Assembly: GCA_029260315.1 (NCBI GenBank)
Contig: JAJDDM010000126.1
Coordinates: 1-64,000 of the forward strand
Direction: 5' to 3'
DNA length: 64,000 bases
From: Phycisphaerales bacterium
GTDB lineage: Bacteria > Planctomycetota > Phycisphaerae > Phycisphaerales > UBA1924
Positions 4,679-44,968 of this stretch are shown one piece after another. The notes below the pieces were generated by a model, which saw nothing but the letters and a program-made list of their open reading frames with translations, made no database searches and had not been told where the DNA came from. The position numbers and the translations under genes were made by a program. The stretch's first letter is position 1. Each line of letters opens with the position of its first letter.

Positions 4679-5950
4679 CTATCCAGCCGCGCCGCCCGGC
4701 TCCAGATCCTCCCACGTCAGCGGCGCATCGCCCTCGACATCGCGCGCGAGCCTTCGCCCGATGACCTCGCCGAGCATGAACGGCTCGATGCCGGTGCCGG
4801 GGCGTTTGATGGTGAGGTCGTCGCTGTTCAAGACTACTCCGGTTTCGCACAACCGTTTCACCACGATCGACTGGCGTGATGCATACCGAACGTCGGACTC
4901 CCACTCGAAGATCTGCTTGCGATACGGGAACACGGCGCCATAGAGGCCTGTGTCAAACGCATACTCCAACTCCCACACAGACTCATAAAACTCGGGAGAG
5001 AACGACCTTGCGAACAGTGACTGGTGGTCGTATCGACTCATCACCTCGATGAGTCTTGCGTACATCTCCCCGCCGACCGACATGTCGCACTCGACATCCA
5101 ACTCATCCATATAGAAATCCCGGAACGGCTCGGCGTGATTGCGCAGACGTGTGAGCTCAACATACTCGGCGAACTGCGATGGCCCCAGTGACGCCGCATG
5201 GTCGGGCCCCTGAGAGTTGGGATCGAGCGTGATGTGCTTCTCGATGAGGCTCGCGCCGTAATGCGTTGCGAGCCAGCCGGTGATCGTCCCGGCTGTGTGA
5301 TCGCTGTAGCCAATTGGAGCAACCTCGTCAAACGTCGGTGGCCGACGTGTCACATTGCGGAGCGAGTGCATCGCGCCGACGTTTGCGGATGCGAGTGGAC
5401 ACGGATAACAACTCACACACTGCAACACCGCCAGCCGCTCCCTCGCGTCCTCCAACCACCCCACCGCCCGCTTGACCTCTTCGAGCGTGCTCGCCCCCGA
5501 GCTCACGATCATGGGCCTGCCCGTCGCCGTCAGCGCCTCCAGCAGCGGGCGATGGATGATGTCCGGGCTCGCGCTCTTGACCGCGTCCCAGGGCAGGGCC
5601 ATCGCCGGTTCGACGAGTTCGGTGCTGAAGACCGTCACGATCGCGTGGATGCCGCGCTCGTGGGCGCGGCCGACGACCCTCGCCATCTCGTCCAGGCTCA
5701 GCTCCAGACGCCTCAGCATCTTGATCGGATCATCCTCGCCCGCGGCCCTCTGGTACGCCGCGAGCTTGGCGGCCTTGCTCATGAGCAGATCGGTCTCGAA
5801 ATACTGGAGTTTGATGGCGTCTGCGCCCGCGCTCGCCGCGGCGTCGGTGAGCATGAGCGCCTTGTCCACCTCGCCGTCGTGGTTCACCCCGATCTCGGCA
5901 ATGATGTACACCGGCTCGCCGGGACCGATCTGTTTGACTCCTATCTTCAT
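4679..5950 (-). CDS. neuB: N-acetylneuraminate synthase / NeuB family (SpsE) with C-terminal SAF domain
   Basis: MKIGVKQIGPGEPVYIIAEIGVNHDGEVDKALMLTDAAASAGADAIKLQ; GYSDHTAG; EKHITLD; SAF-like RRSI-type region (RQSIVVKRLCETGVVLNSDDLTIKRPGTGIEP). Confidence 0.92.
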   Translation of the reverse strand: MKIGVKQIGPGEPVYIIAEIGVNHDGEVDKALMLTDAAASAGADAIKLQYFETDLLMSKAAKLAAYQRAAGEDDPIKMLRRLELSLDEMARVVGRAHERGIHAIVTVFSTELVEPAMALPWDAVKSASPDIIHRPLLEALTATGRPMIVSSGASTLEEVKRAVGWLEDARERLAVLQCVSCYPCPLASANVGAMHSLRNVTRRPPTFDEVAPIGYSDHTAGTITGWLATHYGASLIEKHITLDPNSQGPDHAASLGPSQFAEYVELTRLRNHAEPFRDFYMDELDVECDMSVGGEMYARLIEVMSRYDHQSLFARSFSPEFYESVWELEYAFDTGLYGAVFPYRKQIFEWESDVRYASRQSIVVKRLCETGVVLNSDDLTIKRPGTGIEPFMLGEVIGRRLARDVEGDAPLTWEDLEPGGAAG

Positions 5951-5960
5951 AAAGGCATTT

Positions 5961-6160
5961 CACCACAGAGGGCGCAGAGAGCACAGACGAAGAGACGAAG
6001 AGACGAAGAGAAGAGTATGGACCACGGAGTCACACGGAGTGTCACGGAGTGGGGAAGAGAATGGTTGCGCTCGTGTTCTGAACTCCGTGCAACTCCGTGT
6101 GACTCCGTGGTGAGAGTTCTTCTCCTGTACTTCTCTGTGTGCTCTGTGCCCTCTGTGGTG
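5961..6160. repeat. Nested palindromic element (family F) between neuB and neuA, overlapping the neuA 3' end
   Basis: Outer arms caccacagagggcgcagagagcacag / ctgtgtgctctgtgccctctgtggtg; inner arms accacggagtcacacggagt / actccgtgtgactccgtggt. Confidence 0.9.
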
Positions 6161-6893
6161 CATCCTCCCTTTCCGAAAGCAGCGCGTCCGCGACCAGCAG
6201 GTCAACCCGCGAGTCGATGTCCACGACCTCGCCCTCGCCGGTGAGGACGCCGCGCCTGTCGCGCCCGAAGAAGGCGTGCGGCCCGGGCTCGACGCCCTCG
6301 ATGCGCAGCTCCAGCGACCGCTTGGTCACGCACAGCACGCCGCCGTCGGGAATGAACGCCGCCGGCAGGTTCTGGCGGCGGTGTACGCCGTGGTTGAGCA
6401 CGTCGCCCTCCCATGCCCGCACGACGCCATCGCCCACGCCGACGCGGGCGGTCCACCAGGGGTGGTGCTTGCCGACGGGCGCGTAGCTCTGCACGCTGTC
6501 GCAGCGGGTCGAGCCGAGCAGCTCGACGGCCCTGTCGATCAGCCCCGCCGGCCGCACGGGTACGTTGGCGTACAGAATCACGGTTGGCGTGTCCTCGTGG
6601 GCGTCGGGCGCGATGCGCATGATCGCGTGGCGGGCCGCGTCGTCGACCGTCGCGGCGTCGCCGGCCAGCTCCGTCGGGCGATCCACCACGCCCACGCTCA
6701 TCACGCCCGCGATCCGCGCGACCTCTGGCGCATCGGTCGAGACCGCAACTGTGCCGACAGTGCGCGCGCGCAACGCATCCTCGATCGACCACGCGACGCA
6801 GGGCTTTCTCCCGACCTCCGCCCAGTTCTTCCCCGCCAAGCCCTTGCTGCCCGCACGCGCCAGCACGATCGCGATGGCGGGGATGCCGCTCAT
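6042..6893 (-). CDS. neuA: Acylneuraminate cytidylyltransferase (CMP-sialic/legionaminic acid synthetase)
   Basis: MSGIPAIAIVLARAGSKGLAGKNWAEVGRKPCVAWSIEDAL; the last ~40 aa are encoded by the palindromic element. Confidence 0.88.
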   Translation of the reverse strand: MSGIPAIAIVLARAGSKGLAGKNWAEVGRKPCVAWSIEDALRARTVGTVAVSTDAPEVARIAGVMSVGVVDRPTELAGDAATVDDAARHAIMRIAPDAHEDTPTVILYANVPVRPAGLIDRAVELLGSTRCDSVQSYAPVGKHHPWWTARVGVGDGVVRAWEGDVLNHGVHRRQNLPAAFIPDGGVLCVTKRSLELRIEGVEPGPHAFFGRDRRGVLTGEGEVVDIDSRVDLLVADALLSEREDAPQRAQSTQRSTGEELSPRSHTELHGVQNTSATILFPTP

Positions 6894-9800
6894 GCGACCA
6901 GCCTCGCCCGTGATCTCGGCACCCGCACAATGTCCAACAGTGACTTCTCCACAATGCTCCCCAGCTTGCGCCCGCCCAGCACGACCGTCCCGTCGCTGCG
7001 CAGCACAAGCCCTTCCATCGTCCGCCGATCTCGCGCGATCCGCGGCACGGTCAGCGGCCCAATCCGCTCACCCGCGACCCGTCCCGGCAACGGGTCGATC
7101 ACGCACGCGCCCAGCGTCGAGATCCAGTGGTCGTAGAACCCCTCGAGCTGCTCGTACACGGCGTCGCATCGGGTGAGCCGCGGCACGATCCAGGGCATCG
7201 CCATCGGCCCGCCATCGCGCGCCCGCCGACCCTCGATCAGGCGATTGAGATTGGCGCTCACTCGCTCGAACGCATCCAGAGCCGTGAGCTCGGCGTAGGT
7301 TCTCGCGTCGTTCGCGAGCAGATCGACGCTGACAATGCCGACCGACGTATCCAAGAGACGATCGACGGCACGCTCGTCGAGAAGATCAGTCCGCATATGG
7401 ATCCCGGCAACCCCGGCATCCTCGGCGAGATGAATGAACTGGTCAAACTCGGGGTGCTGGAGCGGATCGCCGGCACCCGCAAACGTCACCGCCGCGTCAG
7501 GATACGCGTCCGACAGGGCCGTCAGCGCTCTCGCCGTGAGGTCGAGATCCGTCGGCGGGCGTTCGTCTGGCTCGCGGTTGCTTCGCTGCCACGAACCCCG
7601 CTGACCACTCGTCAGCCTGCCGGTGCAGAGCTCAATGGTGAGTTGTCTCGGCGTGCGCTGCTCGCGGTAGGCGAACTCCGCGAGTGCCGCGCCGAGTTGG
7701 GATCCAACAAGCGACTCAAGATCGCCCGCGTGGTCTTCGATGACCCGTGCGATGCCGCTCGCTCGGCTGGGCGAATCGGCGATGATACGCGCCCCGAGAT
7801 CGCGCAGACTCGGATGGATGCGCACGCATGTGTCCCGCGCGATCGGATCCGCACGCCCGGCGTCGGGGATATAGCCGGTCACGCCGCCAAGGCTCGCCAG
7901 CGGGCCCGCCCGCTCGATCTGCGCCGCGATCTCGCCGACGAGTTGACGAGCGATCACGCACGCCCCGAGCCCCGGCGCGGCCTGTGAGAACACGAACGTG
8001 TGAGACTCCGGATCCTCGCGATGGCGCTCGATCAGCCGGTCGATGAGCGTCGGATCGACGAGGCACCAGTCCGGCCCGATGAGGCACGCCGCGTCGATCG
8101 CCAGGTCCTGCATGACCTCGTGCAGCAGTTTCGGATCGAGGATCTCGTCGAAGACGGTGAGCCCCGCGAGCCCGCCTCGCCAGCTCGCGTGCGCAAACAC
8201 CCGCCCGAGCGACACGCTCTTGCGGCGCGCTCGCTCGCATTGGGCATGCACGATCTCGATCTCGCCGGGGCAGTCACGGACAATCGCCCGCACGCGCTCG
8301 GGCTCGTCGCTGAGCAGGATGACGCGATCGAGCCGCTCACACATCGCGAGGCGCTCGATGGTGAGTTGGAGGATGGAGCGGCCGAGCGCGAGCGGCTCCT
8401 CGATCGAGCGAAGGTTGCCCAGCCCGCCGCGTTCGAGATCGACCGGCACCACGGCGCACACCCGTGCCCGCCGGCACCCCACGCGAACGGCGTCCGCCGC
8501 GGGCGGGCGTGTCAGCTTCGGCCCACCATCCAGTGCGCTGAGAGTCCGATCCATCAGCTCTGCGAGGCGGTCGGCTGACTCCGCCAGGCCGGTCACGTTC
8601 CGCAGATCGCGTTCGATCTGCGCGAGCTGCTGCTGCAACGCCGAGCTGTCGCGATCCAGCGCGATGATCCGATCGCGTTTGGCCCTCTCCAGCGCCTCGG
8701 ACTGGCTGAGGAACTGGGTCAGCTCCCACGCGGACTCGAGCGAGGTGACCTCGTCGCGACAGACGTTGATCTTGTCGATGAGCTGGGCGACTCGCTTCTG
8801 GTTGTTCTGCACCTTCTTCATCTGGCGCAGCCACTCGCCGGCGCGCCGGCTCGCGGCGGCGACGGACCTCGCGTCACGCGCGATGCGCTCGATCCGCGAT
8901 CGCAAGGCGGCGATGGTCTCCTCGCGCCGAGACGTGCCGCGTCTCTCGTCCGTCCAGTCGGTGGGGATCGCGAACACGCCGGTGTCGAATCTCGCCAACG
9001 CCTCGTCGACCGCCATCGGCGGTGCGCACCGCTTCAGTGTCCCGCCCTCGGAGCAGTCGATCGTCCGCAGCCCCCGCTCGTGGTCGCGCGCGAACATCTC
9101 CTCGAACTGCACCTGGTAGGAGTGCATCTGCTCGTCGGCGTAGATCGTCCGCCCGAGCTGGTCCGGCACGCGCATCAGCAGGTGGCGCTGGCGCACGACC
9201 CGCTCGTGCTCGAACATCTCCAGCGTGCGGAACTCGTTGAGCTCGCACGCCCAGGTGTCGTGGATCGCCGCCCCGCCGGCGTAGTATTGGCCGTCGGTGA
9301 ACCCGAGGTCCTGCCCGACCAGCAGCACGGGGTCGCACCCGAGATATCGCGCGAACTCGTACGACAGGTGCGCGACCGTTGCGCCCGGGCGCAGCTCGCC
9401 CTTGACGCCCGCGAGTTCCTCGCCCAGCAGCGCGTCCAGGTGCTCGTCGCCGACCAGGCGGATCGCGCCGCAGAACGCGTCGAGCACGCCGGGATTGACC
9501 ATGGGCTCTGCGATGAGCGTCACGCCCCGCAGATCCTCCTCGCTCAGTCCCTCGTAGAAGCGATTGGAGATCTCGTGGTGGTCGAGGGCCGTGACGAAGT
9601 GCGGGCGGATGCCGCGTTCCAGCAGCGGCTTGAGCACCGTCTGCACCGCGATGAGCACGAACTTCTCGCGGATCTCCGGGCGCGCGAGCGCCTCCATCGC
9701 CTGCGCCAGGCTCGGCCCGGCGGCGATCACGATCGCCGGGCGGCCCCGGCACGCACCCTCAAGCTCAGCGATGCCCGGGCACGTCGCGTAGTGCTCGGCG

Positions 9801-10450
9801 TTCATCGCCAGATTCCGCAGCGTCGTCGGCGACTGCACGAGCGTCGTCATGATCGTCGTGCGCAGCGCCTTGACCGTGCGCGCGATCGTGTCGGCGAACG
9901 CCGGGGCGTGCGGGCCCAGTCGCGCGTTGCTCGGCGGGTGGTCGATGATCTGGAGCCCCATCGCGACCAGCCCCTCGAAGCCGCGCAGCGCCGCCGAGAG
10001 CGCCGCGGGCTGATCCGCGGTCTCGACGATCAAGAGATTTGTCCCGTTGATCCACTGGCTCATGTCCACGCTCTCGAAGACAGCGCGAAGCAGCCCGAGA
10101 TCCGGCTCGAACACGAGGATGACGCCCTGCCCGCCCAGACGCTTGGCGAGGGCCGCAACATGGGCCCCGGCACCGAAGCCCGCGATCGCGAACGCGCCGT
10201 GGGTCTCCAACTCGCCGCGGCTGGCGAACCGCTTGGCCTCCTCAAGCGGGCGACGCTTGCTCGCAAGCGCCCGCGACGAGGATCCGCCGACGATCTCGCC
10301 GGTGACACCCCCGTCGTCGGCGAGGAAGATCGACGCGTCCTGACGCGCGGGGATCGAGAGGAGGCGCTGCGCGAGTGCCGGGCAGGTCCGCCCGAGAGCC
10401 TGGAGATTCGACCGCAGGGTCTCCGGCGATGGTGAGCAGCAGATGATCAT
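6890..10450 (-). CDS. DUF115 (MAF/MptE-like) protein fused to a SpsF-like nucleotidyltransferase region and a cysteine-poor radical-SAM-like C-terminus
   Basis: AIVIAAGPSLAQAMEAL...LIAVQTVLKPLLERGIRPHFVTALDHHEISNRFYEG (DUF115); VVPVDLERGGLGNLRSIEEPLALGRSILQLTIERL; VTFAGAGDPLQHPEF; RBS ggaggg before ATG at 10450; 4-bp overlap with neuA. Confidence 0.8.
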   Translation of the reverse strand: MIICCSPSPETLRSNLQALGRTCPALAQRLLSIPARQDASIFLADDGGVTGEIVGGSSSRALASKRRPLEEAKRFASRGELETHGAFAIAGFGAGAHVAALAKRLGGQGVILVFEPDLGLLRAVFESVDMSQWINGTNLLIVETADQPAALSAALRGFEGLVAMGLQIIDHPPSNARLGPHAPAFADTIARTVKALRTTIMTTLVQSPTTLRNLAMNAEHYATCPGIAELEGACRGRPAIVIAAGPSLAQAMEALARPEIREKFVLIAVQTVLKPLLERGIRPHFVTALDHHEISNRFYEGLSEEDLRGVTLIAEPMVNPGVLDAFCGAIRLVGDEHLDALLGEELAGVKGELRPGATVAHLSYEFARYLGCDPVLLVGQDLGFTDGQYYAGGAAIHDTWACELNEFRTLEMFEHERVVRQRHLLMRVPDQLGRTIYADEQMHSYQVQFEEMFARDHERGLRTIDCSEGGTLKRCAPPMAVDEALARFDTGVFAIPTDWTDERRGTSRREETIAALRSRIERIARDARSVAAASRRAGEWLRQMKKVQNNQKRVAQLIDKINVCRDEVTSLESAWELTQFLSQSEALERAKRDRIIALDRDSSALQQQLAQIERDLRNVTGLAESADRLAELMDRTLSALDGGPKLTRPPAADAVRVGCRRARVCAVVPVDLERGGLGNLRSIEEPLALGRSILQLTIERLAMCERLDRVILLSDEPERVRAIVRDCPGEIEIVHAQCERARRKSVSLGRVFAHASWRGGLAGLTVFDEILDPKLLHEVMQDLAIDAACLIGPDWCLVDPTLIDRLIERHREDPESHTFVFSQAAPGLGACVIARQLVGEIAAQIERAGPLASLGGVTGYIPDAGRADPIARDTCVRIHPSLRDLGARIIADSPSRASGIARVIEDHAGDLESLVGSQLGAALAEFAYREQRTPRQLTIELCTGRLTSGQRGSWQRSNREPDERPPTDLDLTARALTALSDAYPDAAVTFAGAGDPLQHPEFDQFIHLAEDAGVAGIHMRTDLLDERAVDRLLDTSVGIVSVDLLANDARTYAELTALDAFERVSANLNRLIEGRRARDGGPMAMPWIVPRLTRCDAVYEQLEGFYDHWISTLGACVIDPLPGRVAGERIGPLTVPRIARDRRTMEGLVLRSDGTVVLGGRKLGSIVEKSLLDIVRVPRSRARLVA

Positions 10451-43783: not shown

Positions 43784-44968
43784 ATGATCGGCGACGGCTG
43801 GGCGGGAGAGCCCGCGACCAGGCCGGGCGAGTATGGTGATGTGCCGCAGCGCCCTCGCAGGGTCGCGATCGTCACGGGCTCGCGCGCGGACTTTGGATTG
43901 CTGGAGCCGGTGATCGAGGCGTGCCGGGAGCGTCCGCTGCTCGAGCCGCTGGTGATCGCCGCGGGCTCGCACCTGGTCGGCCCGACGCTGACCTATCGCG
44001 AGGTCGCGGCGAGGTTCGAGGTGATCGACAAAGTCCCGATGCAGGTCGCCGGGCGGACCGGCAGGGCCGCGGATGTCGAGGCCCTCGGGCGCGGGATCCA
44101 GCGCCTCGGCAGAGTGCTGGAGTTCCATCAGCCGGACTGGACGGTCGTGCTGGGCGATCGGATCGAGGCGATGGCCGCGGCGACCGCGGCGAGCGTGGGC
44201 GGGTTCGCGCTGGCGCATATCCACGGCGGGGACCGGGCCGAGGGCGTCGCCGACGAGGCGATGCGCCACGCGATCACCAAGCTCGCGCACCTGCACCTTG
44301 CCGCGAGTGAGCACTCGGCAGAGCGGATCCGGCGGATGGGAGAGCCGCCGGAGACGGTGCATCTGGTCGGCTCGCCGGCGCTGGACGGGCTGGATGCGAT
44401 CGAGGCGATGGAAGATGAGCCGTTCGAGGAGCTGGGCTCGCCCGAGTTGCTCGTGCTGATGCACCCGATCGGCAGGACGAACGAGGCCGAAGAAGCGATC
44501 ATGTCCGGCGTGCTCGCAGCGTGCGCGGGACGCCGGGCGCTGGCGCTGATGCCCAACTTCGACGCCGGGCGCGTCGGCATCGTGCGGGCGATCGAGGCGT
44601 GGGGCGGACCGCATCGCTACCACCTCGCCCGCCCGCAGTTCATCGCGTTGCTCAAGCGGCTGGCCCGGGATGGCGGCGTGCTTGTGGGCAACAGCTCCGC
44701 GGCGCTGATCGAGGCCTCGGCGCTGCGGTTGCCTTCGGCCGACATCGGGCCGAGGCAGGGTGGACGCGAGACGGCGGGCAACGTGCTGCACGCGCAGAGC
44801 GAGTCGGCCGAGGAGATCCGCGCGACGATTGAGCGCGCGGGCGGCATCGATCGCGACACGATCGCGGACTCCTTCGGGGATGGACACGCGGGCGCCCGGA
44901 TCGCCTCGATCCTCGAACGCGTAGATCCCGGCGCACCAGGTTTCACGCGAAAGCGCTGCGTCTATTAG
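43784..44968 (+). CDS. neuC: UDP-N-acetylglucosamine 2-epimerase (hydrolysing), NeuC/LegG-like
   Basis: VAIVTGSRADFGLLEPVIEACRER; VVLGDRIEAMAAATAASVGGFALAHIHGGDRAEGVADEAMRHAITKLAHLHLAAS; exact start uncertain. Confidence 0.88.
   Translation: MIGDGWAGEPATRPGEYGDVPQRPRRVAIVTGSRADFGLLEPVIEACRERPLLEPLVIAAGSHLVGPTLTYREVAARFEVIDKVPMQVAGRTGRAADVEALGRGIQRLGRVLEFHQPDWTVVLGDRIEAMAAATAASVGGFALAHIHGGDRAEGVADEAMRHAITKLAHLHLAASEHSAERIRRMGEPPETVHLVGSPALDGLDAIEAMEDEPFEELGSPELLVLMHPIGRTNEAEEAIMSGVLAACAGRRALALMPNFDAGRVGIVRAIEAWGGPHRYHLARPQFIALLKRLARDGGVLVGNSSAALIEASALRLPSADIGPRQGGRETAGNVLHAQSESAEEIRATIERAGGIDRDTIADSFGDGHAGARIASILERVDPGAPGFTRKRCVY

Follow-up and report, generated by a model that had tools for sequence, protein, structure and literature searches.

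What purpose can a radical S-adenosylmethionine (radical SAM) fold serve once the residues that would hold its iron-sulfur cluster are gone and it has been joined to a Maf-type protein? This question is raised by a gene of a Phycisphaerales bacterium on contig JAJDDM010000126.1, of which positions 1 to 64,000 were analyzed (64,000 nucleotides, hereafter the window). Its reading frame runs on the minus strand from an ATG at 10450 to a stop codon at 6892-6890 and encodes 1186 amino acids, comprising a Maf nonulosonate glycosyltransferase part, a cytidylyltransferase-like part and a pseudo-radical-SAM/SPASM part (Table 1). Such a three-domain fusion had been proposed in an original prediction made from the DNA; the fusion is real, and every motif quoted for it is found in the translation. 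In our reading, the protein is probably a cytoplasmic Maf-type nonulosonate transferase for flagellin, whose C-terminal half acts as a non-redox substrate-handling module.

With 71 homologues as input, AlphaFold2 modelled residues 641-1186 at a predicted local distance difference test score (pLDDT) of 93.1 and a predicted template modelling score (pTM) of 0.92. The whole-protein model contains six barrel strands (936-939, 987-990, 1016-1021, 1039-1043, 1087-1093, and 1117-1119) and also a SPASM-like hairpin. The radical SAM matches returned by Foldseek include SuiB, SkfB, DesII, MoaA, and BtrN. At the profile level, Radical_SAM and SPASM were detected in 28 and 17 of 40 C-terminal halves, respectively, and in the Protein Data Bank (PDB) a profile of 40 C-terminal halves matched both BtrN and a cytidylyltransferase of Leptospira. 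The radical-SAM/SPASM-like character predicted for the C-terminus is borne out by structure and profile alike: a partial triosephosphate isomerase (TIM) barrel with a SPASM hairpin was recovered, and neither the lack of such a fold nor unrelated domains in homologues, both of which were looked for, turned up. The likeness to radical SAM/SPASM enzymes (SuiB, SkfB, anSME, BtrN) lies in the six-stranded barrel and the SPASM-type hairpin, whereas the fusion differs from them in having neither CxxxCxxC nor the SPASM cysteines.

By sequence, the nearest named relative of the C-terminal half is the NCBIfam family spiro-SPASM, TIGR04321, at a score below its cut-off. The TIGR04321 profile spans both the nucleotidyltransferase-like and the radical-SAM/SPASM regions of planctomycete relatives (best 158 bits) but has no Maf fusion. 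It matched the C-terminal half of the window protein with about 33 bits (E 2.6e-8), and its curated cut-off of 250 bits was reached in none of 392 planctomycete genomes. A weak sequence match to the TIGR04347 family pseudo-SAM/SPASM, which judged by its name has a radical-SAM-like fold without radical function, was found in 10 of 40 homologues; this family differs in being haloarchaeal by name and in not being joined to a nucleotidyltransferase or Maf. In the open-access literature, no publication was found that mentions spiro-SPASM, TIGR04321 or a fusion between Maf and radical SAM.

The absence of cluster ligands extends far beyond the window protein. A search of the phylum yielded 39 further homologues of the C-terminal half, and a scan of a genome collection with the Maf region as query yielded 80 named loci, nearly all labelled as Phycisphaerales, Phycisphaeraceae or Planctomycetota and most of them from metagenome assemblies; an earlier genome scan with a single protein as query gave no matches. 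None of the 110 aligned homologues (88 fused, 22 single-gene) has CxxxCxxC, including the stand-alone genes beside maf across Planctomycetota. In the window protein the site reads IELCTGRLTSGQR, with one cysteine; this corrects the motif originally given for it, while the absence of the triad stands. Along the same line, all four SPASM columns lack cysteine in the window protein, as had been predicted. Zero or one of the four SPASM cysteines is kept in 88 of 88 fused Phycisphaerales proteins, and three or four in 20 of the 22 single-gene relatives, so that the suspected loss of cluster ligands is indeed a matter of the whole clade. The G.G[DE]P-type motif, which contacts S-adenosylmethionine (AdoMet), is found in 45 of the 88 fused homologues and in 17 of the 22 single-gene ones.

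Since the triad is absent everywhere in the alignment, while the SPASM cysteines are kept in the single-gene relatives but gone in the fused ones, the triad was probably lost first and the SPASM cluster later, on the fused branch. Fusion itself as the cause of the SPASM loss was considered and rejected, because L189, an independent fusion in a distant planctomycete, keeps its SPASM cysteines; moreover, within Phycisphaerales a single branch of the tree carries both the fusion and the SPASM loss, and their correlation therefore has little independent weight. Two related proteins that do not adjoin maf, L190:8778-10451 and L194:4009-5715, have an intact triad (FDVTNVCNARCVHCPQ); their N-terminal similarity to the nucleotidyltransferase region is weak (about 11 bits). 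L183/L186, tried as a relative with an intact triad, was rejected: only the radical SAM part matches, and its N-terminal part is unlike the nucleotidyltransferase region (WbqC-like by eye). A radical SAM domain would here have been retired stepwise with living intermediates, namely triad-bearing proteins, relatives that keep the SPASM cysteines but not the triad, and fused forms that lack both.

Conservation is distributed unevenly over the C-terminal half. In the fused clade, mean entropy is 1.99 bits for the barrel and 2.03 bits for the nucleotidyltransferase region, but 2.49 bits for the triad loop and 2.78 bits for the SPASM remnant. The barrel is thus as conserved as its neighbor while the former cluster sites drift, a sequence pattern that disfavors mere decay. 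In a set of 71 fused sequences, R1020, R1091, and R1129 do not vary, and D1043 and D1119 are almost invariant. Single-gene relatives often have Glu or Ala at 1020, Glu at 1091, Ala or Ser at 1129, and Arg at 1043 and 1119; the charge pattern is specific to the fused clade. Judged from the strand positions in the model, R1020, D1043, R1091, and D1119 would be positioned at, or close to, the C-terminal ends of barrel strands. In active radical SAM enzymes, this C-terminal face of the barrel holds the cluster and AdoMet.

The fusion is a conserved family trait of the lineage rather than a one-off: it is present in 76 of the 80 loci, the other four being cut by contig ends. Where the module is encoded by a gene of its own, that gene is usually a direct neighbor of maf. 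A tree of 84 sequences requires two origins of the fusion, one in a single Phycisphaerales clade (support 99) and one in L189, which indicates from the sequences that fusion arose at least twice. The genome carrying the second fusion (G180; L189:8607-12125, with SPASM cysteines kept) also carries a split maf/pseudo-radical-SAM pair at L188:4511-6181.

The Maf part was recognized correctly in the original prediction, except for its extent, as it spans residues 1-640, more than half of the total length rather than one third. For the whole-protein model, the top Foldseek match is Maf of Magnetospirillum magneticum (PDB 5mu5; PF01973), with E 6.2e-19 over 721 columns and TMt 0.48. The likeness comprises the PF01973 core and the fold, including the C-terminal helical bundle; the difference lies in about 550 additional C-terminal residues with two further domains. 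The core is intact and its main motifs are invariant, 47 of 174 columns having one residue at ≥95% in 71 homologues. In the only public Maf crystal structure, the central domain is Cst-II-like (PMC11339370), and flagellin is glycosylated by Maf in the cytoplasm before export (PMC4065374).

The genomic context is likewise that of a Maf protein, with nonulosonate genes adjoining the fusion and flagellin present in the genome, which has one PF01973 gene and several flagellin-like genes. The predicted overlap with the gene for a CMP-nonulosonate synthetase (CMP, cytidine monophosphate) is found as a shared ATGA, and this link is conserved: a NeuA homologue starts -9 to +67 bases from the fusion stop in 66 of 70 loci with at least 900 bases after the fusion, with NeuB following in 57 of 67 loci. 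The window with NeuA and NeuB also contains a NeuC-type UDP-GlcNAc 2-epimerase gene (43784-44968, plus strand) scoring above the TIGR03568 cut-off. PseB- and LegB/LegC-type models, tried for the sugar type, did not pass their cut-offs, unlike the NeuC-type model, and the sequence evidence therefore leans, without being decisive, to a neuraminic/legionaminic-type route. The gene also tracks flagellin: of the 201 genomes compared within the order, module and flagellin occur together in 146 and are both missing from 37; 10 contain the module without flagellin and 8 flagellin without the module.

Domain composition, loss of cluster ligands, the conserved operon, two fusions and co-occurrence with flagellin are computed features of this system; from here on we infer, namely transferase activity, flagellin as the acceptor, and binding of substrate by the module. 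According to our proposal, the two genes following the fusion would make CMP-nonulosonate, from which the Maf domain would place nonulosonic acid on flagellin in the cytoplasm. The C-terminal half, with its cytidylyltransferase and pseudo-radical-SAM/SPASM folds, would go back to a partner gene that stood on its own next to maf. Having no ligands for the radical SAM [4Fe-4S] cluster, it would perform no radical chemistry and would instead handle substrate for the Maf domain, be it the acceptor flagellin, the anionic CMP-sugar, or both. We read it this way because the partner gene was fused to maf twice and by analogy to the flagellin transferase FlmG, which requires a separate flagellin-binding domain (PMC7591256). 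More tentatively, and with doubt on our side, the barrel may have been stripped of its catalytic and then its auxiliary cluster and rebuilt as an anion-binding site (R1020, R1091, R1129, D1043, D1119), which would bind CMP-nonulosonate or the acceptor and supply it to the fused Maf domain. If so, a radical SAM fold has been turned into a substrate-handling domain of a glycosyltransferase. Little is understood of how Maf proteins select flagellin and are supplied with CMP-nonulosonate, and a conserved partner module, encoded separately in some lineages and fused in others, would offer a direct handle on it; annotation of such genes as radical SAM enzymes would imply the wrong chemistry.

Several points weigh against this proposal. 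Known Maf proteins function without the C-terminal module, so that the chemistry itself does not depend on it. The change to Arg and Asp at the barrel face could serve structure alone, by forming salt bridges. The association between module and flagellin (Fisher p 2e-23, 201 genomes) ignores phylogeny, and in 10 genomes with the module no flagellin was detected, 8 of them in genera g16 and g23. For the one member examined of each genus (G295 and G360), only part of the Maf profile matched. The fused relatives L045 and L050 from these genera, which match the Maf profile only in part and come from genomes without detected flagellin, possibly changed function after loss of flagella.

Among the other explanations, we consider it unlikely that the C-terminal half has survived as a passive remnant that binds no ligand and serves folding or oligomerization only. 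The stepwise loss of cluster ligands and the drifting SPASM tail fit this picture, but a barrel that equals the nucleotidyltransferase part in conservation, and whose charge patterns set the fused clade apart, does not, and neither do two separate fusions with maf. Somewhat less probable still is that the cytidylyltransferase-like domain remains an enzyme making nucleotide-sugar for the Maf domain, with the pseudo-radical-SAM part as a structural partner. The middle region was rightly predicted to resemble an SpsF-type nucleotidyltransferase, as its fold (residues ~662-900) matches that of active SpsF/KdsB cytidylyltransferases (PDB 6oew, 1h6j) and IspD. NTP_transf_3 was matched by 12 of 40 homologues of the C-terminal half, and the candidate metal-binding residues D794 and D892 as well as R758 are conserved in Phycisphaerales according to the residue table. 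Nevertheless, D794 is not conserved in distant relatives, and a bona fide synthetase is already encoded by the next gene. The domain also differs from SpsF/KdsB enzymes in its attached domains and its altered signature loop: in a local and weak hhalign alignment of uncertain register to the neighboring synthetase, R(M/A)GS-LPGK is paired with GLGNLRSIEEP, and the Lys is gone.

That the module is an active radical enzyme whose cluster has unusual ligands, and that it edits the sugar or flagellin, appears very improbable to us. In favor of this reading are the triad kept in the related pair L190/L194 and the existence of non-canonical radical SAM enzymes with other motifs, such as ThiC (PMC4389238) and Dph1-Dph2 (PMC11048331). 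However, the C-terminal halves of the fused proteins share no alternative trio of conserved cysteines; C875 in the nucleotidyltransferase-like part is their only invariant one. This residue (window 7826-7828, minus strand) is present in 71 of 71 fused homologues and is not conserved in distant relatives.

Table 1. Features of the fusion gene and the two genes that follow it, in window coordinates.
Feature	Residues	Position	Strand	Basis
Maf / nucleotidyltransferase-like / pseudo-radical-SAM fusion protein, 1186 aa		6890..10450	(-)	translation; full-length AlphaFold2 model pLDDT 92.4, pTM 0.89
Pseudo-radical-SAM (beta-alpha)6 barrel	934-1136	7043..7651	(-)	six strands in model; Foldseek SuiB/SkfB/DesII/MoaA prob 1.00
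Lost CxxxCxxC site, IELCTGRLTSGQR	939-951	7598..7636	(-)	triad kept in 0/110 homologues
Remnant of AdoMet-contacting GGEP-type motif, VTFAGAGDPLQHPEF	988-1002	7445..7489	(-)	motif comparison among homologues
SPASM remnant without cysteines	1140-1186	6893..7033	(-)	among least conserved stretches of the protein
SpsF/KdsB-like cytidylyltransferase fold	~662-900	7751..8467	(-)	Foldseek 6oew TMt 0.69, KdsB, IspD
Maf nonulosonate glycosyltransferase part, including C-terminal helical bundle (506-640)	1-640	8531..10450	(-)	Foldseek best match 5mu5 Maf
MptE-like/DUF115 core PF01973	213-386	9293..9814	(-)	E 2.9e-34, 118.7 bits vs cut-off 34.6
CMP-nonulosonate synthetase (PseF/NeuA-like); 4-bp overlap with the fusion stop		6042..6893	(-)	CTP_transf_3 1e-13, PseF 1.5e-17
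NeuB-type nonulosonate synthase with SAF domain		4679..5950	(-)	NeuB 8.8e-59, NeuB_NnaB 3.9e-77

Parts of the fusion protein are also matched by proteins of uncultured phages in BFVD, A0A6J5SAF2 and A0A6J5SAC2, which have close accessions and are annotated as GT-A type and SPASM, and likewise by several MptE-like phage proteins.

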